Below, piece after piece: positions 8,353 through 47,000 of a stretch of DNA of 64,000 nt. The notes under the pieces were generated by a model that did not search any database, was not told the DNA's origin, and saw only the letters and a program-made list of their open reading frames with translations. This DNA comes from Hydractinia symbiolongicarpus (lineage: Eukaryota; Cnidaria; Hydrozoa; Anthoathecata; Hydractiniidae): assembly GCF_029227915.1 (NCBI RefSeq), contig NC_079887.1, forward strand, positions 8,680,001 to 8,744,000, given 5' to 3'. The position numbers were made by a program, and so were the translations under genes. Position 1 is the stretch's first letter; the number at the start of each line of letters is the position of its first letter.

Positions 8353-11300
8353 ATGAAAATTCTATGTTTATATATCTTGTTCGGTATATTTATCCTACCA
8401 TCACATAGTTTCTCTGCCTTGTTTGAAAAACAATGCACAAATCGTTACGAATTTCGACATGATGTACCTCACATATTTCCTTACCTGAAAAACTGCACTT
8501 ATGTCAGACAACAGCACCCGATATGTGGAAAAAACATTGTCATATCGTATGCTGAGCATGCGCCGTACGTAACATTTAACCACACCACTGGCAGACCAGT
8601 AGGATTCTTACCAGGTAACTTCTTCATGTAGTTTATGACAACCAAATTGCCTACAACCTTTTATATTCTACGTATCTATAGGAGACAAGAAAAAACGCCA
8701 CATTAATCCAGTTTGTTTCATTCGTTTCAACTGAAGTAAAACAGTGAACGTTTATTTATTTTTTAAAGTTTGAGATGGAAGAAATTCGAAAGTTGGCAGA
8801 CCTGTACCAAAGCAGTCTACAGGCGTGCGTGTGAAAGTAATTTTTAGGCCAACCCGTGATTGGTAAATTTCTATTTCTCATTGCTCTAGGTATGCTTCGA
8901 TTGGCCATGGAAACGTGTTGTTACGGTTGTGCAAACTTAACTTTTATTGGTCCATTTAAAGCAGTAGACAAATTCTTTCAAAATGCAACCGTATTAATGC
9001 CGGTTGAGTCAGCTAGTAACAGCAAAAAGTTCGTTGGTATGGAGTATATTTCGTTTGTTGATGTTCCAGGGGTAAGTTTTCTGGCAAGAGAATCAACTGG
9101 AAGAGCTACTAAATTGACAAAACATCTTTTCAAATCTGTCATCAACACATGGCCGTTGTTTTTAACAGCTTTTTTAATGGCAATCATAGCCGGATGTGTT
9201 GTTTGGGTGCTGGTACGTAATACCTTCTTGTTTACTTCAAACAAAGCATGTATCAAGGCGGTCTTAAAGAGATTGAACGTCTACTCTCACTTAAAATGTA
9301 ACCTATTAACGGATTTGATTGAATGTTCACAATGAATTATGTGTGTTTTGGCGTTAACAAAAAAACTACACTTAGTTCTCTACTAAATTTGTTGCGAGTA
9401 TGAAAATAATTCAGATTAATAATTTAATTTAGAACACAGAACGCATTAATATTATCTATTGACTTTAGGATACCTGGTTCAACAGATACGAATTTCCTTC
9501 AAGCTTTCCACGAGGACCATTTGAAGGTTTTTGGTGGGCATTTGTTTCTATGACTACTGTAGGGTAAGTTAATGTTTTCGGATTAAATGAGATAATCGTG
9601 AAAATACATTTTCAAGAAAAATTGAGAATGAAAAGAGAGTTCAGTAAATTATTAAAAAGTTTAAAAAAATGTTATAAAAAGGGTTTTGTGAGTTTTCCAA
9701 AAAAAAAATTGTGCAAAAAAAGATATCAATTAAAGTTTATGTTGATAAGATAGATAAATAAGATAAGATAATTTTATTAATCAAAAATAGCTGTTCAGTT
9801 CAAATAATTAAATAAATTGGTAATATGAAGGGAGAAAAAAATAACAACAAAAAAACTATTTTTGAAGGCCACCCTTGGACGAGTACAATAGGCGGCACAG
9901 GACATACATAAACATATATAATCACCAGACAAATGAACCATGTGAGAATAAAGGGAAAATTTGTTACAAATTAATAAGAGGCAATAAGACACTTCTTTAG
10001 ATCACTTTTAAGACCAAAGTAATCTATAGAAACAAATTTTTTAGTCATTGATTTCTGTATCTTATTGCAGGATTTAATGGTGTTAAATCTAATAGAATTT
10101 TTACCAAAACAAACGGTATTCACAGTAGGAAGATTGATCAATCCAGCCTTTTCTGCACGAGTGCTCTGGGAATGGTTTGATTTCTGCATCTTATTCCAGG
10201 ATTTAATGGTGTTAAAACTAATAGAATTTTTACCAAAACAAACGGTATTGACAGTAGGAAGATTGATTAATCCAGCCTTTTCTGCACGAGTGCTCTGGGA
10301 ATGGTTGAAGTCAACCGCAAAAGTATTCTGGATAGTAGCAGGCGTTTTATCATGAAAGAGCTTATGCAAAAACAGAATGTTCTGACACTGGACAATATCA
10401 TTGAATTTGAGGATGTCCAGATTGCCATAGATGATACTAGATGATGCTCTTCGAGATTCAAAAGTCATTAGTCTGATAGCAAAATTTTGTAAAACAGCAA
10501 TACGATTAACATCAAGACTGTTTGGTTGACCCCAAATTTGATTACAATATTGCATTCGGGAATGAAAAATGTCATAGTAGACCAGGATAAGGACATTTTG
10601 AGGCACAAAATGACGAAGTTTAGCTTTTGGCTGACACAAATACTTGGGAAAAGCACTACAATAAAAAAAGCCGGAAGAACCGGCGTCAGAACGACGGGCT
10701 AAGTCAGCGTTAAGCAAAAGGTTGAGCGTTTTAGTGCAGGTATACCGTGTTACACAACCGTGGTCAGGGGTTTTGGTGCAGTTATAAGATATGTGACAAT
10801 TCCAGTAGTGCGCTAGCAGCAATTAAGCCTTCCCGCCATTGAACGTTTGGCTGCGCTGTAGTACATGTATACCGTATGTTGCAAATCCAGTAAAGCGCAC
10901 ATCACAATATAGCGTTTCGGATGTAATGGATGTTATAAAAAAATAACATTCTTAAAAATTTAGCCAAAATTTAAACGCGGGGTACCCGTTAAAGCAGAAG
11001 CAGTAGAAATGGCAACTTCGGTTTAAATGAAAACACGAAACAGCCCGTCGTTTACCTCGTCTAGCAAAAAAAATGACTTATCAATTTAATTTTACGGAAT
11101 AAGTTTAAGGTGAAGAGAGCAGAATGATAAATAATTATTTGTTGGAGATAAAAACCTTTTTACTGAACTGAATAATAAGGCAATAATATCAATACAAATT
11201 TATCAGAAGTAGAAATATCAAGAAAGGACCTTCAAAATGGCTACCACTACTCGCGCATCTCCCAAAAACCTCGTTATTAGCTAGAACTTCATGTTACACT

Positions 11301-14300
11301 CATGAATGGAATCGGCAAATAATATTAGCAGGATCATTATTTAAAATAGCGCATGAAGATAATGCAGCTTTTACTACATCCTTGGTTTTAAAAGTTTGCC
11401 GAAAAATCAAAGAAATAATACTGACTAGTTTTTAACCCGTGAGAAAATCCACGGGTCAGTCCGTCAAAAACCGATTGAAGATGACAGCAGCTATTTTAAA
11501 TAAGTAAAATGTGGGTATTGTTAATATGGATAATACACTTGTTCTCTCTTTCTTTAGGTATGGCGACCGTGCACCGAAATCGATAATTGCACGTTTATTC
11601 GCAGTGTTGTGGATTTTGTTGGGCATCACAATATTCTCAATGTATACAGCAACGCTGACATCAGCACTTTCAGCTAATGTAGAAGCTTTAATGAAAGAAC
11701 AAATAATCGGAACAACGGTAATATTAGTTGCGCGGTATCTATTTTGTCCTTAACCAATGTTTTTAATGTAAAAATAACACAGGTAGAAAGAAATCTGGAG
11801 CTAAAATTTTTATACTGAGTGAAAGGAAATTTAAATTATAAGTAGAATGACATTAAAAACACAATTCTTAAATAACTTCTTTTATTTAAATGCATAGAAG
11901 ATAATCTACTAAAACATCGATTTAATTATAGAAGACCTTGACTATAATATGAATACCACCACACTACATGCAGCAAAACTTCTACGTAGCAGATACCTTT
12001 CTTAAAGAACATTTTTCTTTGGAGTGCATGTAATGACTGTCAAATTTTCTTTTTCTCTCTATGAGGGACACCTCTTTTTAGCGGTCATTGTTTTAAAATC
12101 TTAATTTACATTACACCCTAAAATTTACCTCCCTGTAGCTTATTGGATTTGTGTTTTTTTGTTTTTTTGCCAGTTAATAACTTCTAATGAAAACAAAAAT
12201 AACATAGAGAAATCTTGCGTCAGCTTTACTGTTCGAAATGAAATAATTTATTGTCTAAGGGTATTTTTTACGGCAAAAACTGGTCTCTTGACGCAGTAGA
12301 GTTTTAAAGCAACTTTTGAAGGAAATTGTATGTAGCGGGCCAAACTTGCTAGAGGACACTTTGTAAAACCTTCTGCTACAAGTTTAAAATTAGGAAAATT
12401 AGTGCTCGAGCTGAAACCTGCGCAGATTTATACCGCAGTAAAAACTGCCTAATTCGTCTTAATTAATTAACCATTTCAATCGGGTCTTCTTTGCAACATT
12501 TTCACCGGGAACAGCAGCGAAACACATTAATATCGAAGGAGATGCTCAAATAAATATGAAAGTAGGCTTTCTGTTAACTGTCAACAATGTTTTAATAATT
12601 TACTTTAGGTGGCAGTATTAAATACTACGGCCGCCGGTAGATCGGCCGTTGTGCAAGAAGGAGCGGACGACAAGGGATATGGAAATATCAAAGAACTTAT
12701 GAGAGCATTGTTGAGTGGTAAAGTACAATGTGAGTCAACCAATTTTATCGGTAAAAAAAGTTTGTAAAATATGATCAAATCTTAGCTCTTGGTTGACCGT
12801 TTTTTTTTAAACCAATAATAATAAATAAAAGTTATTTTCAATTTTTTTTGTTGTGCAGCGGATTATGAATCAAAATGCTTAAAAAAATAAACTAAAATTT
12901 GACAATTTTAGTTAATAATTAGAGTTAGAATCCCTACATAAAATGGAAAATTAGTTCATACGCTTTGCAAGTACAATCTTTTTTATTCATTTAAGCCGGT
13001 AATGCCAATTTTAGGATATACTGGCAAGTAAAATACGATAGAGTACACAAACAAGTAACACTTTACTTCAGCCCAAACTTAAATTATGAACAACATTAGA
13101 ATCAAACCTCTGGTCAATGATGTTTTAAAAAGTGTATTTATTTTAAGCACTCGTCCCAATTGAACAGCATGGCGAAAAATTATAGTTTTCAGGAAATTGT
13201 CTTCTCTAAAGCGTGATAATGAATAACGAAGTAATCATCAAGATTTTGCTAACACCTAAATGAATCACAAAATATGATTTTTTCTTAACATTTTTCTAAA
13301 CTCTAAAAGATATTGTTATTAAAAATCAACTAGTTTCAGTATTTGTCGAATCTAAACAATGACTTAGAAAGCAGGACTAAAAATTGAATTCTCTATGGGA
13401 TGCGATCTCTGGTGGGAGGGTTAAATTCATTAGCAATTGGTTAATAAAGAATATTTAAATATTTTTTTAGCAATAGCCATCGATGATAACATAGTGGCCT
13501 ACCACATGAATTACCTCAAAGGACAACTCCCAGACATCAGGGAGCATCGACATGTCAACATTAAGCATAATTCGTACGGAATTGCAACTTCAGCCCAAAC
13601 TTAAATTATGAACAACATTAGAATCAAACCTCTGGTCAATGATGTTTTAAAAAGTGTATTTATTTTAAGCACTCGTCCCAATTGAACAGCATGGCAAAAA
13701 ATTATAGTTTTCAGGAAATTGTCTTCTCTAAAGCGTGATAATGAATAACGAAGTAATCATCAAGATTTTGCTAACACCTAAATGAATCACAAAATATGAT
13801 TTTTTCTTAACATTTTTCTAAACTCTAAAAGATATTGTTATTAAAAATCAACTAGTTTCAGTATTTGTCGAATCTAAACAATGACTTAGAAAGCAGGACT
13901 AAAAATTGAATTCTCTATGGGATGCGATCTCTGGTGGGAGGGTTAAATTCATTAGCAATTGGTTAATAAAGAATATTTAAATATTTTTTTAGCAATAGCC
14001 ATCGATGATAACATAGTGGCCTACCACATGAATTACCTCAAAGGACAACTCCCAGACATCAGGGAGCATCGACATGTCAACATTAAGCATAATTCGTACG
14101 GAATTGCAACTTCAGCCCAAACTTAAATTATGAACAACATTAGAATCAAACCTCTGGTCAATGATGTTTTAAAAAGTGTATTTATTTTAAGCACTCGTCC
14201 CAATTGAACAGCATGGCAAAAAATTATAGTTTTCAGGAAATTGTCTTCTCTAAAGCGTGATAATGAATAACGAAGTAATCATCAAGATTTTGCTAACACC

Positions 14301-16251
14301 TAAATGAATCACAAAATATGATTTTTTCTTAACATTTTTCTAAACTCTAAAAGATATTGTTATTAAAAATCAACTAGTTTCAGTATTTGTCGAATCTAAA
14401 CAATGACTTAGAAAGCAGGACTAAAAATTGAATTCTCTATGGGATGCGATCTCTGGTGGGAGGGTTAAATTCATTAGCAATTGGTTAATAAAGAATATTT
14501 AAATATTTTTTTAGCAATAGCCATCGATGATAACATAGTGGCCTACCACATGAATTACCTCAAAGGACAACTCCCAGACATCAGGGAGCATCGACATGTC
14601 AACATTAAGCATAATTCGTACGGAATTGCAACGACGGATAAGGAGCTGGCCGAGTTTGTAAGATCCTTCTTCGTGAACAATGAAGATCATAGAGCGACTT
14701 TGCAATCACATATTATGAATCATTATGGGGTACGTAGTATTCTGTTGTGTGTGTATATTTCTCTTATCTCACTTCTTGGCGTGGTTTAGGACACACAAAA
14801 TATATTGAAAAAAGGCAACAAATTTCGGAGCTCGTTCGCATAAGTATAGGTCATTTCAATCTAGATACACACAATTTTTATTGTTGATTTTAATCATTGA
14901 AATCGTTGAAGCAAGCAATTCACCTTGTTCCCTGGTAAATCATAATACCTGATTAGCTGGACGTATTTTATAAATGGTTAAAGCGGGACTTTGTAAACTT
15001 TTACAAATGCAATTTTTACGTAGGAAAACATACTTAATTTAAGGCAACGAGAAAAGAATTCTTTGGGTATATGATATGCTGATTTTTTGTTGTTAGATTT
15101 ATTTACTCTTCGCAAGACAATATTCCATTTCCCTGCAATTCGTGAAATATTGCTAGGCTCGGGGAAGTAAATCTTATTATTCAATAGAAATGTAATATCT
15201 GCTTATTATATTCACCTTGCGTACCAACATTGTATGAAAATATTGGAAAAGAATTTCGACATAGTAGGGAAAACAGTTAGAAAAACAAAAGTACTACAGA
15301 TTTGTTTCTAATGTCCTAATCAATCTGCTTATTTTTGTTTTGTTATTCCAGATACCCAAAGAAGTTGCACATGAATGAAGATATAAATTTATGCATTTAT
15401 TTTTTTAATTTAGATGAGATTTCACAAAGCAGAAGGAAATCAGGTTGATACAACGCAGTTTTTTTCAGCTGACTCTCCCATTTTCGTGGCAACAATTGTT
15501 GCGTTGCTCATTCTTGGTATTGTAACTATCATCCTCGGCTTAACTTGCAAATGGTACTTCAAACAAAACGAAAGCATTTTAAGAAAATGTATAAGAATTC
15601 AGGACAAGAAGGCGAAATACAAGGAACCAGGTAAAACATATTTAATTACTTTCTATAGGGCTGGATGCTGCGAATTGTCAATTTAATCTTTAGACTGGAA
15701 AAGGCATGTATTTATATACATGTAACATTTTTTTTGATCGTTAATTATTGTGTACTTTATTTCAATTTTAATAATTATAATACATTTAAAATTTTAAGTC
15801 ATGTATAGCAATACAATAGGAATAACGTTATCAATGATAGCTATTTTATTAAAGCTAGCTAATGCTGTAATTGTAAGATATTGAGCTACCTGCAAATGGC
15901 TGAACGACACACCAGTTACATCATGCTTGAAATTGTTAGAGAATGGTTTCCTTTCGACTGCATAATTCACGAAATTTCTTATTAGCATATGCGCACCTAA
16001 ACCAAGTATTACTGGTGAAATGCCTGTTAAAGAAGTATTCGGCGTTCTAAATATCTTGTTAGTAATATATTTCTGTATTTCTGTGATTAAAAAGAGAACA
16101 CTGTTTTTTTTTAGATGTTGAGTTGAAACCTATAATAAATCACACAGGAAATTTAAATGAAGAGTTCTTTAAAGAACTTGAAGAATTGAAAGCGAAATGG
16201 ATGGAACGCCTTCAAAATGAAGCCGTGAACGGAAATGGCAAAGCTCATTAA
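8353..16251 (+). CDS. ionotropic glutamate receptor-like channel with potassium-channel pore signature
   Basis: Eight exons join without a frame break: 8353-8614, 8890-9212, 9469-9563, 11558-11717, 12609-12729, 14515-14729, 15414-15630 and 16115-16251 (1530 nt, 509 residues). Order of parts: signal peptide (about 1-20), ligand-binding half S1 (60-165, with GRPVGF at 82-87), M1 (175-195), pore loop with FWWAFVSMTTVGYGD (216-230), inner helix with MYTATLTSAL (255-264, the counterpart of the iGluR SYTANL motif), S2 (276-412), M4 (415-435) and a basic cytoplasmic tail. The amino-terminal domain of typical animal iGluRs is absent, so the length resembles bacterial GluR0 and the rotifer receptor AvGluR1, which also has a potassium signature. 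By homology it should be a plasma-membrane tetramer, and the filter predicts potassium selectivity. The ligand is unknown: the usual S1 arginine after the PLT-like motif is not obvious. The splice junction between exons 3 and 4 falls inside the filter glycine codon. Functional assignment is inferred; the reading frame and motifs are seen. Confidence 0.88.
9740..10660 (-). mobile_element. 5'-truncated LINE fragment (C-terminal part of reverse-transcriptase ORF)
   Basis: The minus-strand frame across about 10620-9971 reads FVPQNVLILVYYDIFHSR, then QYCNQIWGQ, then a run with LDILKFNDIVQCQNILFLHK. This is the typical region after the catalytic domain of Jockey/CR1-like non-LTR elements. The catalytic domain and endonuclease are absent, so the copy is 5'-truncated and dead. 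An AGATAA-like simple repeat near 9748-9770 probably marks its 3' end. It lies antisense in intron 3 of the channel gene. The open frame continues to 10822, but that upstream part has no LINE resemblance and its first codon is TTG, not ATG. Confidence 0.7.
10050..10307. repeat. 129-bp tandem duplication inside the LINE fragment
   Basis: Two adjacent copies (10050-10178 and 10179-10307) differ by only a few bases. The period of 129 is a multiple of three, so the LINE frame is kept and a 43-residue segment containing NHSQSTRAEKAGLINLP is doubled. Confidence 0.85.
11424..11456 (+). repeat. dispersed ACTAGT..CCACGGG repeat fragment
   Basis: The sequence GACTAGTTTTTAACCCGTG followed by AGAAAATCCACGGGT matches the dispersed family seen at 6108 and 51855. 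It lies in intron 3 of the channel gene, about 100 bp before exon 4. Confidence 0.45.
13471..13588 (+). pseudogene. truncated copy of channel exon 6 (unit 1)
   Basis: The acceptor and the first 118 bases of exon 6 are intact, including the codons for IAIDDNIVAYHMNY. The copy then breaks at the unit junction after the codons for YGIA. If it were used as an exon, the frame would continue a few codons (TSAQT) into unit 2 and hit TAA, giving a receptor that ends inside S2 and lacks M4. No donor site is evident at the break. Confidence 0.8.
13993..14110 (+). pseudogene. truncated copy of channel exon 6 (unit 2)
   Basis: This is the second identical partial exon 6, exactly 522 bp after the first and 522 bp before the complete one at 14515. 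It has the same acceptor and the same in-frame stop just past the junction. Confidence 0.8.
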
Positions 16252-18395
16252 ATGCGCTCATAAAATAACTATCTTGTTGGTATTCCCCTGGCTGTTAGAT
16301 AGAGTATTGACGTACCAATGTTGCACTTTTTTTTGGTCAAGCCACAACTATTGGTTTAAAGTTGTGCATTTTTTTCTATCAAACAATTTGTACAATAGAA
16401 TATTACGGAGTTAAGTGTCGAAAAACAGTATTCTTTTGAGAAATGATATAAGGCCAAACAATTGCGTAAATCACGTCTAATATTCAAAAGTTTTAAATCA
16501 GCATATGTATCTATGTATTCTGTAAGAAATTATTTAATTTTTGAATTTTCGTAACTTGATGTAAGTATTTCTGGTGTTATAAGAATTTTTTTTGTAACGT
16601 GTATATATATACATATTATTTGTACGTTTTTTAAACATAACACTTAACGAATTTCACCGACTCGTTCGTCTAACTTTCATCTACAATCCTACTATTGTAT
16701 AGGAGTCTCTCAAAGCACAGTGGCACTAAACAGCGATTAAATCCCCGCTTCCAGAGTTTTGCCGCAGCTACCTCTAAAAAACATAAATTATCATAAACCA
16801 TTAAAATTGTTGACATCAGCAAAAAAATCACGTGACCCATACCGCACATGCGCAAACTATTTTGTAAAGTCTATACTCTAAAAGTTGTGTCCACTAGGAA
16901 AAAATGTGCTAGTAAAAATGTGTGCAAAGAAAAATTGGATACGATAACACAGACGCTAAGAATTTTGTTTAGTAGTCACTGCACATTCTCTAATGCTCCG
17001 GATGGTTTCCTTACACAATCAATGTGTTGCAACGCTGTCGTGGTGTATTCCAGCGCATTCGCAGTGGTTTACCATAGGTACAAGAATGTGCTATAATGCT
17101 GTTCGGGCAACACCATGGTTCGAGTATGTACCATATTGGATCATTTCCCAAATGATGTCTATCCGGTCTGCGAATTGTATACGGGCTTTCTTTAACGCAA
17201 GCAGCAGAAATGTGAACTACATTGTCGCCTATTGCCCGTACCCTATCATCTTCATAGGGCCTTTGACTGGTGCTATTCCGAGGATAAAAAGAAGGATTTC
17301 ATAATAATATAGAGCTAGGGATTCCCTGGAGTTGGTGGTAGTCAATATAATAAGCAATGAAACAACAATGCAATGATTGTAAAACGGTGCTTGATGTGTA
17401 TGACATCCGTCCCCCATCCTCTTCCCCCGGACCGAATAGAGTTGGGCAATGGAGAGACTGCACCCTGCCAATTTTCACAGCAAACAGCGCGATCCTGGCA
17501 TTTGACAGGGTATATGTTAAAGGCAAAAATTGGTACCCAACATACGTGGCAGAGTGTAAATACAAAGCAATACCACTGCATGGCACTAGCTAATTTAGCA
17601 ATTTCGACGACGATGACGAAGGGTTTACTTTTATATAAGCGGTTGGCCAGGGATGATGATTTACTGATGATGGGACATACTTCCAGAGCAGAAGCTTCCG
17701 CGGGCAGAAACTTTCGCGTTTTTCGTCTTTTTCGCCCTTTTTCGCAAAAGTTTTTGCCTTTGAAAATTTAAAACAGCAAACTGCATAGGCTTTTTCACGC
17801 GAAATCATAGCAAATTAAAAAAGGTCCCTCCCTGATATTCGTTCATATAAGAAAAGTAATGACACATGGATCGATATTATTATTACGTATACAATCCTAT
17901 CCTTTTCTTAGTCTATCAATCTGTTACAATAACTTTTGTCTCTTTTTTTTGTCATGATTAAAACTTCTCTATATATAAGTCGATATCAACAAAGATTTTC
18001 TGCTAGTAATAATGCTTTCACAAGAGATAAATATTTACAATTATGTAGAAATTATAGTGTTGATCAAAACTATTATACACGGATAAATAAAAACTATTTT
18101 AGCTCATACCAAAGTAAACGTTTTGATTATAACAATAATCCTGGTGATGCATAATATATTTCATATAGTTTTTCAAGATGGATTATAAAACATTCAAGAC
18201 GTCTATCAACCATAGGTGCGCAAAAGCGTAGTAAATCTTTGAGAGCTTTTTCTTTTTTACCTTGAACATCTCAAACTTCAACGAGATGTAGCATTCTTGG
18301 GAACTTCGGTCCGGCTTTAGATTGCCAAAATGTATTTTTGAACAACTTTGAAAAGATAATTATAGACATGTTGACAGAGACATTTAAATATTCCA
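16252..18395. other. unassigned region with an ORF-dense, less AT-rich patch at 16.85-17.8 kb
   Basis: Downstream of the channel gene, several overlapping frames on both strands are open between about 16848 and 17808, in sequence visibly richer in G and C than its surroundings. The most protein-like stretch is plus strand 17357-17593 (with QWRDCTLPIFTANSAILAF and KNWYPTYVAECKYKAIPLH), but I recognise no family, and the frames conflict. A further small open frame at 17936-18154 has no recognisable features. I read this as decayed mobile or exonic sequence, not as a gene. Confidence 0.4.
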
Positions 18396-18741
18396 GGATA
18401 CACTACAATATGCTAGAATTAAAGTTGATTATGTTGTCAGTGAGAATGTGTACATGCTATCAAGTGATATAAACCTGAGGATGGACACAGTGAACTATTA
18501 CAATGAGTATTTTCAAGTTTCTTTCACCCAATTAAACAAATGGACTGGGTTTAACATTACATCACACGAGAAAGATCGTTCATATATCACTATCAGCAAA
18601 CAGCCATTAGACAAAATTACTGTTGTACGATATGCATGGAAACAAGAACGGTGCTTGTTGAAGTTGTGTGCAGTGTACGGAGCTGGTAGAGATTTACCAA
18701 GTCTACCTTTAATCGCGTACAGTCCCTTTCTCGAAAATTAA
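18396..18741 (+). pseudogene. isolated SIAE last exon, joined to an upstream open frame
   Basis: From about 18510 the frame reads FTQLNKWTGFNITSH, then KQPLDKITVVRYAW, then LLKLCAVYGAG and ends PFLEN-stop. This is the last exon of the SIAE genes at 44.0 and 55.7 kb on the opposite strand. The other six SIAE exons are not found upstream, so the copy is a fragment. The original acceptor is degraded to TTTTCAAG. Upstream, after an acceptor-like TATTCCAG at 18395, the same frame stays open (DTLQYARIKVDYVVSENVYM), which could be chance or part of a chimeric transcript. The intact reading of the SIAE part suggests recent origin. Confidence 0.7.
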
Positions 18742-21700
18742 GTTAAACTTTTGACATTGCTATGTTATTAACATTTTCTTAATTTCTTTTGTGTGACTGC
18801 ACTTTTTTAGATTATTAATAATCAAAAATATTGCATCATTTATAAAATTTAATTATTCCTGGAAAAATACGCGGTTTGTCTGTCGCACATATTTTGGCCA
18901 GCACCATTTCATACAACATTGTTATAAAATAGCAAATCAGTTCTCATTTTGAACAGAATACGACTAGTTGATAGTCCGTGGGAAAATCCTCAGGTTCCCC
19001 AACCTTCCATATTCCACTCCTCAGATATCCGTCTGACACCCTCAGTTAACTCATTTCGTACATTCTTATTTTCATGACATAATAGTAAAATAAAACTGAA
19101 CTAAACCATCTTAAACAGGCAGACTATATTTTAATTTTCTACCGAGAAACGAGTGCAATTTTTCTCCTTAATATTGTGCAAAACCTGTATAATTCTTCGT
19201 TGATTGCCTGAAATAGGGTGCAAATACTTCTCCATAAGACAAGACATACCGTAAGGTAAAGTTTGTTAATAATTTTATGGATATATTATTCCCAGGATAG
19301 ATAAGAGTTAAGTGAGAATGGGCGCAACCCGCAAATTAGGCTTTACAGCGTTACAATCATCAGCATTATTATCATTCGGAGAGATCTATAGATACCAGAT
19401 TTGTTTCTATCAAAGTAAACCTGCAAAGTTGTTGTGAACGTCAACGAGGTTGGTTATACATTAAACCTTTATCAACTTAACCCCCCCCCCTAATGACTAG
19501 AAAAATTTCTTGCTAACTTAAATAAAAAAAATTCACAGAAATCACAAGGCTCTTTAAAGTTTGTTGAAAGTGAATCTAGATAGTCACATCATAGAAATAC
19601 AGCAGTAGAAAGCAATTACTTGCTTCTTTCTTTGAGAACAACAGAACTAAAAGTAAACAGCTTTACATCAAGGCGTACTCATTGAGTCAATGCTATAATT
19701 TTTATCAAATCAGGCCCATGACCGCCTTCTGCATTCAAAGGCGACACATAGTAAGAATAAATTTCCTTCCGTAATATTCCTGCTCAGCAACTTTTTCTTA
19801 ATTTTGATTCCGTTAACGTATATTCCAAACTCAGGAACTTCCAAATACTCAATAAGAAGTTTTGATTTCGCATATACCACTGTTATTAACTTTGATTTAG
19901 TACAGAACTATTCCTTAGCCCCTTTCGGTAAACACGTCTTATCTGATAGAAGCCAGGATTGAAGTACGGGTTGAAAACTCGTCGAAATTTGCAGAACCTA
20001 TTAAACAATGCGGTTACCATAAAGCATTAACATTGGGAGAAGTTGTTTATTTCCTTACATCCTTCTCCTAATAATTCCGTAATTCTAGGCAACTTTTTGT
20101 CCATGCCGAAGACGATTAAACAACGGCATGCGAGGTGGAAAAACAAGGCAATTGGGAGCAACAAAGATATTGATATGCACTATACCGTTTAATTACCACA
20201 AAGACCATGGTGCTTAGGCACATCGAGAGAGGGTAAAGCCTCGGTAAACACTCCTAGGCAGAGATTTTATTATTAACTCGAATGATGTTAACCCAGAACG
20301 AACTTTGTGTAGTTAATAAGAATAATGTTCTGCTTTAAGACAAAGTGCTAGTGTTATATACAGATGATTTCTGCATCGACAAATTCTCCTTAGGTGAGTG
20401 CCCCTGAATAAAAATTCAGGGGCACTTGCATTTAACGGCAAACGGAAAGTACTGTGCGAGTATTTTTTATCACGAAGGGGTGATCTGCCATCCATTTTGA
20501 AGGTGATGCAGTTTACGTATTACTATGTAGAGGTATTTTAGACACAAATTTCAATAGACGTGCGAAGTCATTATCATATATTTCTTTCACCACATATCAA
20601 ATAATATTTTCACAGAGAAATATGTGTACATCAAGTATAATATATTAAATAAACTGTGTTAGTAACAAAATTAAGAGGCATTGCATGTAAGCAAAGTGTA
20701 AGGAGTTCTGAATAACAAGTCTTTAAAGAACTCCTTCGATCCATCATTTCTTGCAGCACCTGGAAAGCTGATGTGCAAACTTATTTACACTTTCACATTA
20801 AATGCGACTTCACGCAGTCACTAAAGAAAATGTTTCAAAAAGAATTTTTAGGTCCTCAACAAAAGTTGACAACTTCAATTTACTTAGAGTTCTTTTGAAA
20901 TCGCTGGCATCTTTAAAATATTCGATAAAGATCGATTGTGACGTTGCATATCTTTTGACTGGTTTAGTAAACGCAGCTGATGTTTTTTGAAGGTTGCTTG
21001 TACTGTCGTCTTTGTATCCAATAATTTCTTTATCTCCTATTTTTTCGTCATCATGTCTGTGTCGCGTTGGCGTATGCTTTTTCTTAGCGCTTTGAAACTG
21101 CATTCCAAGTCTGTTTTGAACAAGCTGTAGCCCTATTGTTATCTGGTTTGTGATGAAAAAGTAAATAGAATCTCTTGCAACCTTTCTTCTTTTCCTAAGA
21201 CGGGTGCTCTCGGTGACTTTTACAAATCCATTACAATGCAAGATATGAGGAGGACAGACAATTGTCAGATTTGTGAAATGTCCCAATCCGTGTGACCAAT
21301 TTGTATCCTTTCCCAATGTGTTTAAATTCGCGGGTCTCTGTTCATCGTTTAAAAATCTAAGGGATCTACCGCTAGTCAGAGTTTTGGTTGCAATTAGAAT
21401 CACTTCTATTTTGTGTTGTCGAAACATGTCAGAGAGCGTTCGCCTAAACGTACTGTGTCTTTTTTAAGCAGTTTCTTGCAACCACTACCCTCTGAGTTTG
21501 TGAGAATTCCTTTTAAAATTTAAATAAATTTTCAATTTATAATGACTTTTTCCAGTTATTGCCTTGAACTGTGGAATGACACAGTTGATTCCCAATCTTT
21601 TTTCAGCACACAAAACATACTCCTGCAAGGCAATTTTAATTTTGTCGATCTCATCTTCTTGGAAATATAGAACATCTTTTCACCTTACTCGGGTTTCACA

Positions 21701-23140: not shown

Positions 23141-24120
23141 CTATAACAAAAATGAAGAAGGTGTGTGACGGCTCCACCCACGAGTAGGTGGCCCAGCGGT
23201 GCATAGACTGCGAGAAAGGCCAATGACCTGTGCATCATCGAGATGTAGATAGCGTCTATAGGCATCACTGGTCCACCTGCCTAAAATCTGGATAGTGCTG
23301 TCAGGCACCCCTGCAGATGCTGCTGCGGAGGCACCACCAATGCGAAAGGAATGTGTATTAATGTGTGGAATATTAGGCAAACACGAAGCCAGGAGGTTTA
23401 CTATGTCCTGACGAGTCAAAAATTTGAAGTCCTGGTAAGTGAAGAGTGGCCACCCTGGGCCGGGATGAACCGCTAAGAAACGGCGCATACACTGAACCGG
23501 GCAAACTGCGTTATTGTTAGCGCCAACCCTAATCTGACAACCAACACGAAAGGGATCTGTTTTAGACGACCGGATATGAACCAGCATGACGGAATTGTCT
23601 GCGGAAAATTGGATATCTCCAACCAATAAATCGGTGGATGGATCGAAGTGACGACTGGATTGATAAGTGTATTCAGAGCAGCGCAACAAGCCAAAGAAGG
23701 CCAAAGAGGTAGCAGCTTTGAAAAGTAGTCGTTCATATACTGTAGCTTGTAAAAATTGAATACGGTAATGAATTAAACACAAATTCTGATATGTAATTGG
23801 GTGCCTGCGCGGCCGGGTGAGACGAGCTCCTTGGACTCTTTTAATTCCTCGCAGGGTGTAACACAAGCGACTCATGTCTGCTATTCGAACATAGTTGCCG
23901 GCCATGATGGAGTGATATTGCAAGCCTGAGATGTAAACGCGAATGGTAGTGTGAGATACGCGTTGTGCCAAACTAGAAATGTAGCGAATTAGAATATCCT
24001 CGTTCAACGGCCAGAGAGGATGAGACCACCTATAACAAAATCGCTGATATGAGGCAACACCAGTGGAATACGTGGCCCTAGTAGTGGGTGCCAAAGCCTG
24101 AGATTGAAAGTACTGTGAGG
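23141..24120 (-). CDS. Ngaro tyrosine recombinase (integrase)
   Basis: The frame is open for at least 317 residues from 24094 (a TTG codon) and continues upstream to overlap the end of the RT ORF. No ATG is seen at the start, so expression by frameshift or from a spliced or overlapping message is likely. The catalytic set is visible: R in LLRCSEY (about residue 138), K near SSKTD (178), H and R in HSFRIGGAS (248, 251), W in LGRWTSD (274) and Y in YRRYL (279 or 282). All tyrosine-recombinase residues are present, so the protein looks functional. It integrates the circular DNA form of the element. The final residues run past the typical fold (SRHTPSSFLL). Confidence 0.9.
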
Positions 24121-25962
24121 CTATACTAAGATGGTCCAGATGGTTGGCTCGATTGGTGTGGGTGACTCGTCTGCGGACTGAAGGCGTTGTTTGAATCGAC
24201 GAACCTGTAACCGAGATAGAAGATCAGCTGCAATATTAGTATGTCCAGGAATATGTTGAAGCAAAATATTAATGTTCAACCGCGCCGTGAATAGAAATAA
24301 GTGGCGAATTAACGACATGATGTGTTTATCCCGCGATGTGCCTGAGCGCCACACATGAACTATGGACGCGTTGTCTGTGTAAATGATGATCTGCAGATTA
24401 CGCCATTCGCGACCCCACGTCCTAACCGCTGCTACAATTGCGAAAAGCTCCAATATATTAATGTGAAAGGAATGAAATGTTGGGGGCCATGGAGCACAGA
24501 ACCAACTATTGCGAAAAACAGCACCAAATCCTACCCCTGATGCATCCGTAAAGAGGCTAAGTGAAGCGGCTGTGATTGGGTCCCCTTGAATAAAACAGAC
24601 ACCATTCCAGCTAGGTAGAAAATCCACCCACCATTGAATGTCTAAGCGTGCCTCCCCATTTAATGTGATATGATGATTGAGTGATGCAACGGTGGTAGAC
24701 AAATCAATTAACCTACGGAGGAACATTCTGCCTAGCTTTACCACTTTGGCAGCGAAAGATAAAGAGCCAATCAAAGAAAGTAATTCTCGTTTGGTGCACT
24801 TCTTCCTACCAGACCAAACCAATAAAGCTTCGTGCAACTTCCTGTACTTATCCGCTGGCAAGCGAATGATTTGTTGCTGAGAGTCGATCTCAATGCCCAG
24901 GTAGGTTATAGTTTGTGAGGGTCCTGTGGTTTTTTCCTCCGCAATAGGGACACCCAGTTTAGTGCACATAGACTGAATAGATTCCAAGTAACTATTTACT
25001 TCTGCTGCCGACCTCCCACAAAGGAAGAAATCGTCTAAGTAATGGATCACAAATGGAATACCAAGCACAGTGAGGAAGATCCAACATAACAAATCTGCAA
25101 AACAGTTAAACAAGAAGGGTGAGGAGCGGCTGCCAAATGGCAAGCGAGTGTCCACAAAGTAATAACCCTCCCAACAGTAGCCTAATAAACCCCATTGAGC
25201 TGGTTTAACGGGGCAAAGGCGAAAAGCATGCTTGATATCAATTTTGGCTAAAAATGCTGTGGGACCCAACCCAGACACCAATTTTAGGGCATCGTCGAAG
25301 GTGGAATATCGCACTGAAAACTCTTCTTTGCATATGCCTTCATTAATAGCATTGCCTCTAGGTGAGGAGAGATCTAAAATTATTCTGTAAGAACCGTCTT
25401 TCTTAGGTACTGCACCTAAAGGTGAACAATGCAGAGGCGTAATTGGAGGGCTTAGAAAAGGTCCTGAGGTGTGGCCTCGCGCTAATTCTTTAGCAATTGC
25501 CTCCCACACTGATTGAGAATTAGAGCGTGCAGATAGTAGGTTGCGTGGCCGGGTAGCTGTGCATGGGCCATGAAAACCAATGTCAAATCCAGAAGACAAA
25601 CCAGAGATAATAAATGACACTAAAGACTGACAAGGGTGTTCCCTTAGCAATCTTTCAAAAAGAGCAACGTTGACAGGACATTGACAAGACACAGGCAGTG
25701 GATTTGGATTAATATTTGCGGACAACGGAACATTGTGAGGCAGGATGGGAGTCGCCGCAGTGTTTGCATTGGTGTGCGAAGCGACATTGTCGGTTCGTAC
25801 AGTGACCCTGTGCGTTGAAGTATCGACAAGTGGCGATGTTATCGACCTGTCCGACTGCACCTGTGTCAGCCCTACTGAGGGTCTGCGTGGCTCGAAAAGG
25901 CTGTGTGGCACGAAAGCGCTGTGAGGCGCGAAAAGGCTGGGGGGCACGAAAGGGCTGCCCAC
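24121..25962 (-). CDS. Ngaro reverse transcriptase / RNase H
   Basis: 613 codons, in a different frame from the gag-like ORF and overlapping it by 254 bp (25709-25962). The first codon at 25962 is GTG, so frameshifting from the upstream ORF is more likely than a fresh start. RT motifs: PKKDGSYRIILDLS (187-199), the first catalytic Asp in DIKHAFRL (242), LPFGSRSSPFLF (274-285) and YLDD (308-311). RNase H: D in FTDASGVGFG (473), E in NILELFAI (505), D in YTDNAS (530), D in AADLLSR (580). All catalytic residues are in place. It copies the element RNA and removes the RNA strand. Confidence 0.93.
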   Translation of the reverse strand: MGSPFVPPSLFAPHSAFVPHSLFEPRRPSVGLTQVQSDRSITSPLVDTSTHRVTVRTDNVASHTNANTAATPILPHNVPLSANINPNPLPVSCQCPVNVALFERLLREHPCQSLVSFIISGLSSGFDIGFHGPCTATRPRNLLSARSNSQSVWEAIAKELARGHTSGPFLSPPITPLHCSPLGAVPKKDGSYRIILDLSSPRGNAINEGICKEEFSVRYSTFDDALKLVSGLGPTAFLAKIDIKHAFRLCPVKPAQWGLLGYCWEGYYFVDTRLPFGSRSSPFLFNCFADLLCWIFLTVLGIPFVIHYLDDFFLCGRSAAEVNSYLESIQSMCTKLGVPIAEEKTTGPSQTITYLGIEIDSQQQIIRLPADKYRKLHEALLVWSGRKKCTKRELLSLIGSLSFAAKVVKLGRMFLRRLIDLSTTVASLNHHITLNGEARLDIQWWVDFLPSWNGVCFIQGDPITAASLSLFTDASGVGFGAVFRNSWFCAPWPPTFHSFHINILELFAIVAAVRTWGREWRNLQIIIYTDNASIVHVWRSGTSRDKHIMSLIRHLFLFTARLNINILLQHIPGHTNIAADLLSRLQVRRFKQRLQSADESPTPIEPTIWTILV

Positions 25963-27217
25963 TATATGCTAAATTTGAAGGTGCTGATTCGTTCCCAGCT
26001 GCTGACTCAGTGCGAAGAGGGCAACTTGATGCAAGATGTCCATAATTCCGGCACCGAAAACACATGACCTGCAGTGGGGCACTTCGGAGATGACGGTTAT
26101 AAAGATCGTCATCTACACGGTTCCATGACAAACCAGAATCAAAAGCCATTTGGTACCTAAACATGCGATCGTATGTCGACCATGCTGTAAATGTAAACTG
26201 TGAGACGAAGTCACACATGATAGACTGATAGTGTAAAAGCTCGGATGCACGATGTGGAAAGAAAAAGGTGAAGCACCGGATAAAATTATTCCATGCTAAC
26301 ATCCAAGATGAAAAGTCACTAACCTTAGGGCGGTTTGATTGCTTGGGAACTAACGCAACTGACGGGCTAGACCCACCGAGAACCTTAAACGTAAACTCGT
26401 CTGAAGATGAGGCAAAAGCAGGCAGTAAGCTATCAAAATTTACATACTCACCTTTTTTAACCTTGTCCAAAACGGCCTGAGGAAGTGCCGGCAAGGGAGC
26501 AGGGCGCGCTGTGGTTGCGACGGAAAACCCAACCTGGGCTGGACGAGGAAGACCCCCCTGTGGAAACTCACCCCCTTCAGAAAAAGGCTCAGACACAAAA
26601 TGGTGTACAATAGGAGTCTCAACAACAGAGTTAGTATTATAAGTGTCACCTGTCGCTTGATTTTGCTCTATTATGTCAGGAGCTCTTCCCGCGAGTCGTT
26701 CCCCCTCTTGACCCTCGAAAAATCGTCGCAATTCTCCTCTAATTAACTCTGTAACCACAGCTGTTGTAAGGATGGGCGACTCGACAACGTCGGTGGTCGA
26801 AGATGATGATGCCTGATGACCAGTCAAGACATTTGAAGACACAACTGTAGTTGACTCAACGCCGGTTGCTGTGTTGGTTGGCTGGCCGCGTGGGCGGAGT
26901 CTGGTCGACCTCGTGGCCACGTTGGTTGATGGAATAATTGGGGCCATACATGATGTAGTGGTCACCGACGTAGCTACCACCGAATGTGGCGGATTGTAGA
27001 ACGAAAACAGGCGACGAGCAAGTATTTGAGGCGATCCTGAGTCGATTAAATTTAGTGCATTGCACACTAATCGTAGAGTTTGAACTGGCAATGTGGTCCA
27101 TTCTGCCAGACTCTTTTTGTCTGCATCTGGCACTGGCAAGGCTACTCCAGAACGTCGTCGAACAGCGACGCAAAGAACTATCATTATCGTGAGGTACGTA
27201 AATCTAACAATAAACAT
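25709..27217 (-). CDS. Ngaro gag-like nucleic-acid-binding protein
   Basis: 502 codons from an ATG at 27217. A SAP-like segment (LPVQTLRLVCNALNLIDSG, residues 43-61, with LARRL following) would bind DNA or scaffold. A CCHC zinc knuckle, CX2CX4HX4C, starts at about 386 (CFRCRNYGHLASSC). Near the C terminus are a CX8CX4CX3H (CCCH) finger starting at about 464 and a second small knuckle (CKHCGDSH). Between them are five short repeats of the QPFRA type. Gag-like position and knuckles suggest packaging of the element RNA. The CCCH finger is an uncommon addition. The capsid part between 75 and 380 has no motif I recognise. Confidence 0.85.
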   Translation of the reverse strand: MFIVRFTYLTIMIVLCVAVRRRSGVALPVPDADKKSLAEWTTLPVQTLRLVCNALNLIDSGSPQILARRLFSFYNPPHSVVATSVTTTSCMAPIIPSTNVATRSTRLRPRGQPTNTATGVESTTVVSSNVLTGHQASSSSTTDVVESPILTTAVVTELIRGELRRFFEGQEGERLAGRAPDIIEQNQATGDTYNTNSVVETPIVHHFVSEPFSEGGEFPQGGLPRPAQVGFSVATTARPAPLPALPQAVLDKVKKGEYVNFDSLLPAFASSSDEFTFKVLGGSSPSVALVPKQSNRPKVSDFSSWMLAWNNFIRCFTFFFPHRASELLHYQSIMCDFVSQFTFTAWSTYDRMFRYQMAFDSGLSWNRVDDDLYNRHLRSAPLQVMCFRCRNYGHLASSCPLRTESAAGNESAPSNLAYSGQPFRAPQPFRASQRFRATQPFRATQTLSRADTGAVGQVDNIATCRYFNAQGHCTNRQCRFAHQCKHCGDSHPASQCSVVRKY

Positions 27218-27283
27218 CTTTCGTCACGTAAATGATTATTTGCGGAACCAATTAAAGGATAACAAAAGATTAAATAAACCGAT

Positions 27284-30035: not shown

Positions 30036-31275
30036 ATGGAATTTCATCTATATGTAGTATTAGTTGCTACTGCTTTGGTCTTTGCTAAAATGGTAACTAT
30101 TATAGTATATTTTGTATCCAGTTTTGATGTCTTATTTTTTTGGTATATTTCCATGTAATACACATTTCATAATTCCTTATTTTTTTCAGAGTCAGTGCCG
30201 AAGCCGTTGTGAATCCAAAATCCGTTCCACAAGTCTTAAAGCTGCATTTTTAGCCAAAATATGCAAGGTTGATGAAACTTTAAATGTTGACTTGAAAGAA
30301 TTTAAAAAAGATAAGGGATTAGTGAAGCTAATAAAACAACTACATATCAAGGCATTTTACAAAACAAAGACCAACTCTGAATTTGAAAGCCAAACAAGGC
30401 GAAAGGATGTACTATATTTCCATGAAGCAGAGGTCGACAAAATTAAAATTGCATTGCACAAGTATATTTTGTGTGCTGAGAAAAGATTTGGAATCGACTG
30501 TGTCATTCCACAATTCAAGACAACAACTGGAAAAAGTCATCAGAAGATAAAGATTTATTTAAATTTTAACAGGAATGCTTATAAAGTTCATAGGGTAATG
30601 ATCGCAAGAAACCGCCAAAATGTGACACTTAGTACGTTTAGGCGAACACTATCTGACATGTTTCGACAACACAAAACCGAAGTAACTTTAATTGTAATCA
30701 AAACTCTAACCAGCGGTAGATCTCGTAGATTCTTAAACGATAAACGAAGACCAGCAAATTTAAACATATTGGGAAAGGATAAAAAGTGGTCACACGGATT
30801 GGGACATTTCACAAATCCGAAAATTCTATGTCCACCTCATTTCTTGCATTGTAATGGATTTGTGAAAGTCACTGAGAGCACCCGTCTTAGAAAAAGAAGA
30901 AAGGTCGCAAGAAATTCTATCTCCTTTTTTATCACAAACCAGTTAACAAAGGGGCTACAGCTTGTTCAAGAAAGGCTTGGAATGCAGTTTCACAGCGCTG
31001 AGAAAAAGCATACATCAACGCGATACGAATATGATGACGGAAAAATAGGAGATAAAGAAGTCAATGAATACGAAGTTGTCAGTACAAGCGGCCTCCAGAC
31101 AACACCAGCAACATTTACTAAGCCAATCAGGAGGTATACACCGTCAAAATATATCGTTATCAACTACCATACAGACTCCAACCAGTCTAAAAGAAAAGTT
31201 AGTAAATCGGATGTGTCAATTTTTGTTGAAGACGTAAAAATTCTTTTTGAAACATTTTCTGTACTGACTGCGTGA
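30036..31275 (+). CDS. secreted protein U, unrecognised family (intact copy)
   Basis: Two exons, 30036-30092 and 30190-31275, join in phase 0 (donor ATG/GTAACT, acceptor TTTTTTCAG) to give 380 residues. Exon 1 encodes only a signal peptide (MEFHLYVVLVATALVFA). The mature protein begins near a CXXXC pair (Cys22, Cys26), with Cys44, Cys114 and Cys123 and two more in LCPPHFLHC, which fits a disulphide-bonded secreted protein. It is basic overall, with RKRRK-like clusters, and lacks membrane segments and obvious enzymatic motifs. An N-terminal CXXXC followed by an AFLAKICKVDE strand loosely recalls netrin (NTR) modules, a guess only. Copies at 20.8-27.5 and 40.8-41.5 kb are broken, so this is the only one in the window able to make protein. 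It lies in a block amplified with SIAE genes. Confidence 0.75.
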
Positions 31276-40784: not shown

Positions 40785-41539
40785 AGAGTTTAGTGAAGCT
40801 GATAAAACAACTACATGTCCAGGCATGTTACAAAACAAAAAACAACTCTAAATTTGAAAGCCGAACAAGGCGAAAAGATGTTCTATATTTCCATGAAGCA
40901 GTGGTCGACAAAATTAAAATTGCCTTGCACAAGTATGTTTTTTCTGCTGAGAAAAGATTTGGAATCGACTGTGCCATTACACATTCAAGACAATAACTGA
41001 AAAAAGTTATCAAAAGTTGAAGATTTATTTAAATTTTAACAGGAATGCTTACAACGTTCAAAGGGTAGTGGTCGGAAGAAACCGCTTAAATGTGACACTT
41101 AGTACGTTCAGGCGAACGTTATCTGATTTGCTTGGACAGCACAAAACAGAAGTAACTCTAATTATAATCAAAGCTCTAACCAGCGGTAGATCTCGTAGTA
41201 TTTTAAACGATAAGCAGAGACCCGCAATTTTAAATATATTGGGAAAGGATACGAAGTGGTCACACGGATTGGGACATTTCACAAATCCGACAATTCTATT
41301 TCCTCCTCATTTCTCGCATTGTAATGGATTTTTCAAAGTCACCAAGAACACCTGCTTAGAAAAAGAAGAATGGTTCGCAAGAGACTCTATTTACTTATTC
41401 ATCACAGCGCTGAGAAAAAGCATACACCAACTATAAAGACTCCAACCAGTCTAAAAGAAAAGTTAGTAAATCGGATGTGTCAATTTTTGTTGAAAACGTG
41501 AAAATTCTTTTTGAAACATTTTCTGTACTGACTGCGTAA
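40785..41539 (+). pseudogene. U gene copy 3, 5'-deleted and frameshifted
   Basis: Homology to U exon 2 begins at SLVKLIKQLHVQ. Exon 1, its promoter and the first 43 codons of exon 2 are deleted: sequence corresponding to 29720-30310 is missing. A frameshift lies near 40985. About 200 bp of the C-terminal part is deleted around 41405-41430, and the end VSIFVENVKILFETF..VLTA with stop is kept. No functional product is expected. Confidence 0.8.
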
Positions 41540-44044: not shown

Positions 44045-47000
44045 TTAAACTTCATTTTCGAGAAATGGACCATACGCAATAAAAGGTGGACTTGGCAAAT
44101 CTCTACTAGCTCCGTAAACTGCACACAACTTCAACAAGCATGGTTCCAGTTTCCATGCATATCGTACAGCAGTAATTTTGTCTAATGGTTGCTTTTTGAT
44201 AGTGATGTATAAACGATCTTTTTTGTGTGATGTAATGTTAAATCCAGTCCATATTTTTGAATGGTTAAAGAAAACCTAAGAAATAGAAACAAAACAAATA
44301 AAACGTAATAGAAAATTTAATAAATTATAACCAGAAAATGCTATAAAATATATTATAACAGTCAAAAAAAACTAAAATTATCTTTTTGAGGGGTGGGCAT
44401 AATTATCGAACTTATTTAGGAACAAAAAAAGTTCAACGACTACACAAACGCTCGAAAAAATATCACTAATACTAATTTGAAAAATTCTGGTATTAACAAA
44501 ATTCTCCGATGGGATAGATTGTACCTACTTTTACAGAAATAGTAGCTAGTCATTTAACTTTTCAGAAATACCATATAATTATGTCAACCGCTAGTTTATT
44601 AAGATCAAAACTAATTTCTAAGTGTCGGCACCAGATCAAAATTATCCTGATACATCATAAGCCGGTTTTTCAAAAAAGTAATTGTTCATCACTTTTTCAT
44701 TGTTCAGCTTTTCATTGTTCAGCTTTATAATGTAAAGATTCCCTAAAAAGTTTTTTATAAGTGTATATATCTTTATATTTTAAAAGTGTTTTAGTACAGC
44801 AGACGATCGTAATAATAAATACAGAAGTTAAAGTTGTATTGTATGTACCTCAAACCCAACATTTGTTCGAATTTCAATTCCAAATGTTCTCAGAGAATCT
44901 TTTTTGTAAATTACAGTCAGCACACACGTGTCATCACATTTTGTCGAAACCAGCACTTTTTCCATTATAGGACCTGTCCAATATGTTTCTTCATTATAAG
45001 CGATATTACGTGCACCCAAAACTAATCTATCAGCGATATCACTTTTATAGCGGGGGTGAACACCTGACAATGGAGATGCATCGTCAGGCAGGTCCATAGC
45101 GACGGCCATGAATGTTTTGAGCTGTTTTGGGTTTGGTACATACCCATACTCAGCCGTTTGTTTCCATCTTATTACTGTGTAGTTTGGATGTGGAGAATCA
45201 TGAGTACAAACAGAGATCTAAAATGATTCAAATGTGTGTGGTGATGTAGGAACTTAAGAATGACTGAGTGATCGTGTACTGGATTTATTTCACTTTAACT
45301 TTTATAGCCGGATATAATATTTTACTTACGTTAAAATGCAAAAGTGGGCCACGAGTAAAAAAATAACATGTTTTGGGATATACCTGAACAAATCCAAAGG
45401 GAAACATTGGGTCTGTACTTTTCTCAGTAGATTTGTACCATTTTTCTCTCCATCCGGCAATCATAGCTGGAAAGGTGCAGTTGTATGTATCTGGATTTGG
45501 AGTATTACTTTCTCCTTGGTACCAAATCACACCAAATATGCTGGTCTTTAATAATGGATATACCATGGCGTTCCAAAGTTGTGATGCCGAATTTGGATTG
45601 CTGGTAATATAAGTTTAACAATTAAGCTTTGGGACCAAGATTAAACATTTTCAGTTGCTTGCAGGAAAATTTTGTTTCAAGATTTCTAGCTCAACATGGC
45701 TGATAAAGCAACCTTTCTAGAATTGCAGCGACTGAGACCAACTAACTTTTTTTGTCGTGTATTTGTCAAGATGTTGATTGTTATGCACCAAGAGCAACAT
45801 TTTCTTTAATGCAACAAGAATTTGGTCAATGCGCATACTTTACTGTACGCAGCAATCGACCTTTATTATTTTGAACCCAATTGATGTTAATCAAGTCAGA
45901 CAGCTTTAACAGTACATCCTTTTTTATTAATTAATTAAGCAAAATTGATGGTCCTATTAGGCTATGATATACACACTCTCCTGAGGCAATGTTAAGCGAT
46001 CAGATATCAACTAAACTCATTTCAAAATTAGTCACAAAATAAGCTATCAGTAGACTTCTGATAGTGTAGGAATATGCCAAATAAAGCTAGACGAAAAAAA
46101 AAACAATAACAGTCTCAAATCTTTAGTGATTAGCATTAACCTACTTGCTAGACGCGTTACATCTTGCTAACATATCTGGTGACGACCAAGCTTCTATACG
46201 CGTGCCACCAAAACTAGAAGAGATTAGACCAATTGGAACATGATATTGATTAAACAATCGTCTACCATACATCCAACATAATGCTGAAAATCCTGACACT
46301 TTGCCTAGAAATAATACCAGTCCTTGTTAGAAAAAGCATTTATGGTACAATTTTTTATTTGTTTAACACTTAGAAAACGCTACTAGAGTTAAATTACGGC
46401 ACAGTGCCGAGAAAATATCGGAAATACTTTTTACAGTTTTTTATATTTCCGTTTACATATTTCCCAATCCGCAATATGTATGAGTATATCACTCATACAT
46501 ATTGCGAGAACCTAAAAACGAAAAAATATGACGATATTTTTCGAGATCAAGAGCGATATCTTGTTATCATATAAACCCCGCGTAAATCATTTTAAATTGA
46601 TATACTCGGCAGACTATTGTTCAATTTCAATAACGGTTTATGAAATTCAACAGCTAAAAAAAATTATGGAAAGATAACATATGTGGTCATGTCTTTTCAT
46701 TCATAATAGTTTTTTTTTAATTTATGATAAATTATGCGCGCAATGGTAATTGATTCAAAAGAAAAACAAAACTTGTTTATGTCAAGCCTGAATGAAATTA
46801 AATGAAAATAAATTTTAATGTATCATATTCATGTTAATTTAATACAAATCAGTTGAAGTGAAAGCTGTGAAAACGAAAACAATAACAACATACGGTATTA
46901 TAAAAAGAGAGGCATTTATATTCTACATACTTTATTGTCTTTAATAAAAAAAAGATTGGCAGGAAATTTTGAATTTTTTTAATAAAATAACAAAAAATTG

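Follow-up and report, generated by a model that had tools for sequence, protein, structure and literature searches.

The window analyzed here, a stretch of 64,000 nucleotides from the hydrozoan Hydractinia symbiolongicarpus, holds at 8353 to 16251 (+ strand) a predicted gene of eight exons and seven GT-AG introns, whose product combines the plan of an ionotropic glutamate receptor (iGluR) with TTVGYGD, the selectivity filter of potassium (K+) channels. In iGluRs, the segments S1 and S2 form an extracellular clamshell whose closing pulls the M3 segment open. The joined exons of the predicted model come to 1530 nt, i.e., 509 amino acids plus a stop codon in one frame, and spliced alignment with the 509-residue protein as query returned identical exon boundaries, stopping short of the stop codon. 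An initial annotation, made from the DNA letters, had claimed an intact eight-exon frame, and exon joining, the GT-AG sites, and the spliced re-alignment all bear this out. The exons, and a repeat that runs into the sixth of them, are as follows.

8353..8614, + strand: exon 1, signal peptide (residues 1-22) and start of S1, with HAPYV at 8557-8571
8890..9212, + strand: exon 2, remainder of S1, with CCxxC at 8916-8930, the place of the missing arginine at 9000-9032, and M1 at 9156-9212
9469..9563, + strand: exon 3, pore helix plus the filter's leading residues (TTV-GG, 9553-9563)
11558..11717, + strand: exon 4, remainder of the filter (G-YGD, to 11567), M3 with SMYTATLTSAL (11637-11669), and start of S2
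12609..12729, + strand: exon 5, S2
13065..14630, + strand: three copies of a 522-bp unit, differing by one base at most, each with the 5' portion of exon 6
14515..14729, + strand: exon 6, S2, with an acidic residue, D325, aligned by eye with iGluR E705, and a SYGI stretch
15414..15630, + strand: exon 7, last part of S2, and M4 (15480-15536)
16115..16251, + strand: exon 8, cytoplasmic tail and stop

Read from its start, the protein runs through a signal peptide, S1, M1, a pore loop (EGFWWAFVSM-TTVGYGD), M3, S2, M4, and a short tail, which is the S1-M1-P-M3-S2-M4 order of the iGluR superfamily (P, pore loop) behind a signal peptide. Hydropathy peaks fall at residues 3-21 (signal), 177-195 (M1), 235-264 (M3), and 415-433 (M4), and no amino-terminal domain lies within the 509 residues, so that model and hydropathy together confirm the architecture first proposed, including the absence of that domain. 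The M3 stretch SMYTATLTSAL agrees in part with the SYTANLAAF gate motif. The filter occupies residues 224-230, and intron 3 (1,994 nt) splits the codon of its first glycine. On the opposite strand, the same intron carries a long open frame (9971-10822, -) that holds a 129-bp tandem duplication (10048-10306) and, judged by eye, resembles the final part of a non-LTR retrotransposon open reading frame (LTR, long terminal repeat).

The third copy of the 522-bp unit alone continues into a complete exon 6, while copies 1 and 2 end as incomplete exons inside intron 5; splicing of exon 5 to either of these would cut S2 early. This triplication was absent from the initial annotation, though the exon frame given there stands. 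The two incomplete exon 6 starts within intron 5 lend something to the explanation that the gene is a non-functional copy in which the tandem repeat disturbs splicing, whereas one complete exon 6 is present, the frame and every splice site are intact, and the triplication may have arisen recently by duplication or be an assembly error. We therefore hold a non-functional copy to be very improbable.

Pfam searches placed the window protein among both channel and receptor families, with matches to Ion_trans_2 (E 1.7e-14), Ion_trans (E 2.5e-9), and Lig_chan (E 5.9e-8; 33.1 bits, cut-off 30.8), all above their cut-offs, and the pore match is far beyond chance. Two voltage-gated K+ (Kv) channels of the same genome, processed as controls, matched Ion_trans strongly (E 3e-28 and 4.6e-52) and gave no Lig_chan match at E≤1, which indicates that a K+ pore alone does not account for the window protein's match to Lig_chan. 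The same controls bear on whether an ordinary Kv-type channel has been mis-joined to unrelated exons, an explanation for which it may be said that KCNQ and other K+ channels head the matches of the whole protein in the Protein Data Bank (PDB). Against it, the window protein lacks an S1-S4 voltage sensor before the pore, where M1 is the sole hydrophobic segment besides the signal peptide; Lig_chan matches the window protein and its family and not the two Kv controls; and S1, M1, pore, and M4 stand in one unbroken frame in most of 24 single-exon relatives, which thus hold the whole plan. Because these relatives exist, the mis-join is largely refuted, and we rejected it as scarcely credible.

These relatives belong to a family of at least 42 loci in the genome, 18 of them intron-bearing (the window gene included) and 24 single-exon. 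The genome (480.9 Mb in 76 contigs) gave matches at 85 places with the window protein and 47 with a single-exon relative; the filter was read in 42 fetched loci, a lower bound with ~20 weaker matches of both searches outside the count. The window gene can therefore no longer be taken for an isolated oddity. The signature [TSA][TS][VI]G[YF]G[DE] is kept in 42/42 loci, with few departures along it (T40/A1/S1, T41/S1, V41/I1, G42, Y41/F1, G42, and D41/E1), while the codons for T, T, V, and G use all four bases at their third positions across these loci; because the third positions vary and the signature does not, the filter is under purifying selection across the family. The intron within the first filter glycine codon recurs in 16 of the 18 intron-bearing loci (donor GT in 15 and GC in one, L015) and is missing from L009 and L022. 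All three of S1 (>80 residues), M1, and M4 occur in 35 of the 42 models or frames, the remaining seven being models or fetched pieces that stop short (L015, L017, L018, L019, and L026) or short frames (L112 and L138). Further, in an alignment of 11 full-length sequences (A1; the window protein and 10 of the 17 other intron-bearing models), Lig_chan and Ion_trans_2 matched every member at E≤0.1. For the single-exon relatives, nonsynonymous divergence (dN) was lower than synonymous divergence (dS) in 7/7 pairs (dN/dS 0.19-0.42), some of which share a member and one of which, L008/L109, has saturated dS.

Across the genome, Lig_chan gave 51 matches, 25 of which (24 places) lie outside the K+-filter family, so that the K+-filter loci (at least 42) outnumber the other Lig_chan places (at least 24). 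None of the 14 canonical iGluR loci fetched (of ~24) carries a K+ filter. For the matches with long open frames, a reading as Kv channels proved wrong for L008 and most of the others and right for L117 and L118; these two and L025, all weaker genome matches, look like ordinary Kv channels. On the contig C13, eight single-exon K+-filter receptor-like loci form a cluster at 7.74-7.85 Mb, ~0.8-1 Mb from the window gene. One cluster member, L138, has a frame of just 283 amino acids, and two weak matches with a stop at 7.81 Mb may represent a broken ninth copy.

Kinship with receptors beyond the genome was clearest for S2. Searched against the PDB, a profile of 13 S2 pieces found GluR0 (Slr1257; 1ii5/1iit) as its best match (E 1.7e-4), followed by a bacterial iGluR homologue (E 0.007, short) and by phosphate-binding and arginine-binding proteins. 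Comparison with bacterial GluR0-like proteins by hhalign gave a probability of 96.9 (E 1.6e-10) for S2 against S2 and 82.2 (E 1e-5) for S1 against S1, and one of the two crossed controls was clean (0.3). A scan of prokaryote genomes yielded at least 498 relatives, and TTVGYG is present in all of the best 80, which were the ones examined (frames of 282-416 amino acids), although this is not an independent finding because the scan itself sought that peptide. Both bacterial relatives tested matched SBP_bac_3 and Lig_chan, and one of the two, L062, matched AMPA and NMDA receptors over S1 and the pore (S2 too for NMDA 1), reaching E 2.3e-18 against GluA2. Judged by their sequences, the best prokaryotic relatives among those listed resemble GluR0 rather than other K+ channels. 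Together, the Pfam matches, the S2 match to GluR0, the Kv controls, and the filter in 42 loci strongly support a receptor of the iGluR type that carries a K+ filter, as had been claimed from the window sequence.

In a phylogeny, here of the pore only, the family groups together. All 42 family rows form one fork (support 86) in a quick tree of 78 rows, from which L123 and L131 are missing by a cut rule and L130 was left out; in a more careful tree of 76 rows, 41/41 family rows fall on one side (97/90), with the bootstrap unsettled and a long-branch warning on iG_L128. The careful tree drops cK_L024 and iG_L129 for their long branches. Of the 80 bacterial frames, 23 were used.

Residues that hold the ligand in iGluRs gave a mixed picture. 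The place of Arg485 in S1, which binds the alpha-carboxylate, reads PVESASNSKKF in the window protein, with no arginine, while the place of E705 in S2, which binds the alpha-amine, holds an acidic residue, Asp325 (placed by eye in an S2 alignment); by a simple pattern, 13 single-exon members have Asn there. A relaxed S1 arginine motif, adopted because a strict pattern missed many bacterial sequences (43/80), was found in 13/13 canonical iGluRs and 63/78 bacterial relatives for which an S1 piece was available, the latter an undercount in that some miss it by one letter, and in 4/40 family members. Three of these four (L014, L140, and L143) have it misplaced, elsewhere in S1 or before it; the fourth is L137. 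With the S1 arginine missing, the family probably senses something other than an ordinary alpha-amino acid, perhaps an amine, a peptide, or an environmental chemical.

We consider it reasonably likely that the window gene encodes an inhibitory ligand-gated K+ channel of the GluR0/AvGluR1 kind, one of a hydrozoan family of at least 42 loci that has lost the arginine with which alpha-amino acids are bound. By analogy, the product would be one subunit of a tetrameric channel, in which an extracellular ligand would shut the S1/S2 clamshell and open the M3 bundle; if the pore is K+-selective as its filter suggests, K+ would then exit through it, a resting cell would hyperpolarize, and the ligand would inhibit. 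A broader and more doubtful proposal, which we hold to be less likely than not, is that hydrozoans possess a large repertoire of receptors, a K+-filter iGluR superfamily that is neither canonical iGluR nor ionotropic receptor (IR), that kept or regained a GluR0-type pore, lost amino-acid binding, diversified into groups with introns and groups of single-exon genes, and serves as inhibitory chemoreceptors or receptors for neurotransmitters or peptides.

Several results weigh against a ligand-gated receptor of this kind. Evidence for a ligand-binding domain of the periplasmic-binding-protein type comes from S2; the S1 profile found no PDB match up to E 10, and S1 kinship with the bacterial proteins is detectable over 34 columns only. 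In the second crossed control, hhalign compared S2 with bacterial S1 and returned a probability of 36.9 (E 3.6e-4). With the whole-protein profile, the best 60 of 445 PDB matches are all K+ pores. Four family members (L019, L023, L027, and L110) score under the Lig_chan cut-off, and a fifth, L024, does not match that profile at E≤0.01. The pore tree, moreover, leaves unsettled whether the family's nearest kin are the bacterial GluR0 proteins, the canonical iGluRs, or the Kv channels: the best tree puts family and Kv on one side with weak support (77/2), and neither a bacterial (p 0.38) nor a canonical-iGluR (p 0.16) kinship is rejected. Finally, with the S1 arginine lost, the binding site may be empty.

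An empty site is the core of the main rival explanation, a K+ channel of the same descent whose binding half is dead, and which would act as a constitutive leak or an obligate partner subunit with S1 and S2 kept for assembly. Its case is made by the absent arginine motif, by an S1 that is short and diverged, and by Asn in place of Asp/Glu in the 13 single-exon members, set against the Asp that the window protein retains at the same place and the profile kinship that S2 retains; a family of 42 loci with a conserved filter also seems more like a receptor repertoire. On balance, we think a leak channel or partner subunit unlikely. The lack of an amino-terminal domain, the lost binding residue, and the division into intron-bearing and single-exon groups are also features of protostome IRs (in part after PMC2924276), and might suggest an IR-like chemosensory receptor whose TTVGYGD pore is not strictly K+-selective and whose opening excites. 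The filter is, however, retained in 42/42 loci, and the same signature occurs in GluR0 and AvGluR1, which the excerpted sources describe as K+-selective (PMC12332018, PMC12226733), making an excitatory IR-like channel distinctly improbable.

If the inhibitory ligand-gated K+ channel is the right reading, the animal may use glutamate-receptor-like proteins to switch cells off, not on. Genome and cell atlas have been published for this laboratory hydrozoan, so that a family of at least 42 loci in it would open ligand-gated K+ inhibition by way of an iGluR scaffold to direct testing, and would offer living material on whether animal iGluRs derive from GluR0-like K+ channels.

Other features came to light in the window and genome. 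At 23141-27223 (-) lies a retroelement with an RVT_1 match (E 1.7e-15), next to a frame that matches phage integrase below the cut-off (E 0.0011), a pairing as in DIRS/Ngaro elements. Three frames, at 20810-21463 (-), 30106-31275 (+), and 40951-41436 (+), share a stretch STFRRTLSD..., and the two of them tested had no Pfam match. Exon-like frames in duplicated sets at 18388-18741 (+) and at 44828-45217, 48484-48849, 56395-56835, and 58663-59100 (all -) resemble sialate O-acetylesterase, as judged by eye; three of the five were tested and had no Pfam match. Elsewhere, the start of contig C2 carries two copies of mitochondrial COX1 15,842 bp apart (L148, 9924-11264, and L147, 25766-27106), in which TGA reads as Trp and AGA stands at positions where Ser is expected. 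The gene order there, trnM-nad2-W-I-Q-C-Y-cox1-L2-cox2-K-D (tRNAs computed; nad2 and cox2 by eye), is of the crustacean type. Hydractinia's own mitochondrial DNA is given in the relevant excerpt as 15,471 bp with tRNAs for Met and Trp only (PMC10411563). A reading of the copies as cnidarian mitochondrial DNA was rejected; they are probably DNA of brine-shrimp food scaffolded onto the chromosome.

We found no description of a cnidarian K+-filter iGluR family in titles and the starts of abstracts, a search that most subscription journals lie outside. The terms "glutamate receptor," "ionotropic," and "potassium channel" do not occur in the main texts of the Hydractinia genome and cell atlas papers (PMC11067881 and PMC11876637), nor does "potassium" in the main text of a metazoan receptor survey (PMC6307864). 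PMC12464821 reports that GO terms for glutamate receptors are enriched in a neuron type B of Hydractinia. That 2018 survey, according to its section 13, kept sequences with a glutamate receptor as first reciprocal hit and at least four SYTANLAAF residues, filters through which proteins with K+-channel-like pores could drop out, leaving a possible blind spot for K+-pore iGluRs. The sections consulted of Croset et al. 2010 (PMC2924276) report no IRs in Cnidaria. In the excerpted literature, GluR0 and a rotifer receptor are the iGluRs with a K+ signature or K+ selectivity, the single rotifer protein being the K+-selective animal iGluR and termed highly atypical (PMC12332018, PMC12226733, PMC3483616).

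Set beside these known systems, the Hydractinia family shares with GluR0 of Synechocystis and the bacterial GluR0-like proteins the order S1-M1-P-M3-S2, TTVGYGD, and the S2 profile match. It differs from GluR0, described in the excerpted source as having two transmembrane domains only (PMC12332018), in that the window protein adds M4 (residues 415-433), and from the bacterial relatives at large in the S1 arginine motif, which most of them carry (63/78, an undercount) and which the family mostly does not (4/40, at least three of them misplaced). The rotifer receptor AvGluR1 (Adineta vaga), likened here by its description, likewise joins an animal iGluR plan to a K+ signature; it is described as gated by glutamate and hydrophobic amino acids (PMC12332018, PMC12226733, PMC3483616). 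Canonical metazoan iGluRs share S1-M1-P-M3-S2-M4 and a SYTANLAAF-like stretch, but those fetched from this genome differ from the family in having no K+ filter (0/14) and keeping the S1 arginine motif (13/13 with an S1 piece). Protostome IRs (in part after PMC2924276) resemble the family in their missing amino-terminal domain, lost glutamate-binding residues, and single-exon expansions, and it is the K+ filter that sets the Hydractinia proteins apart from them.

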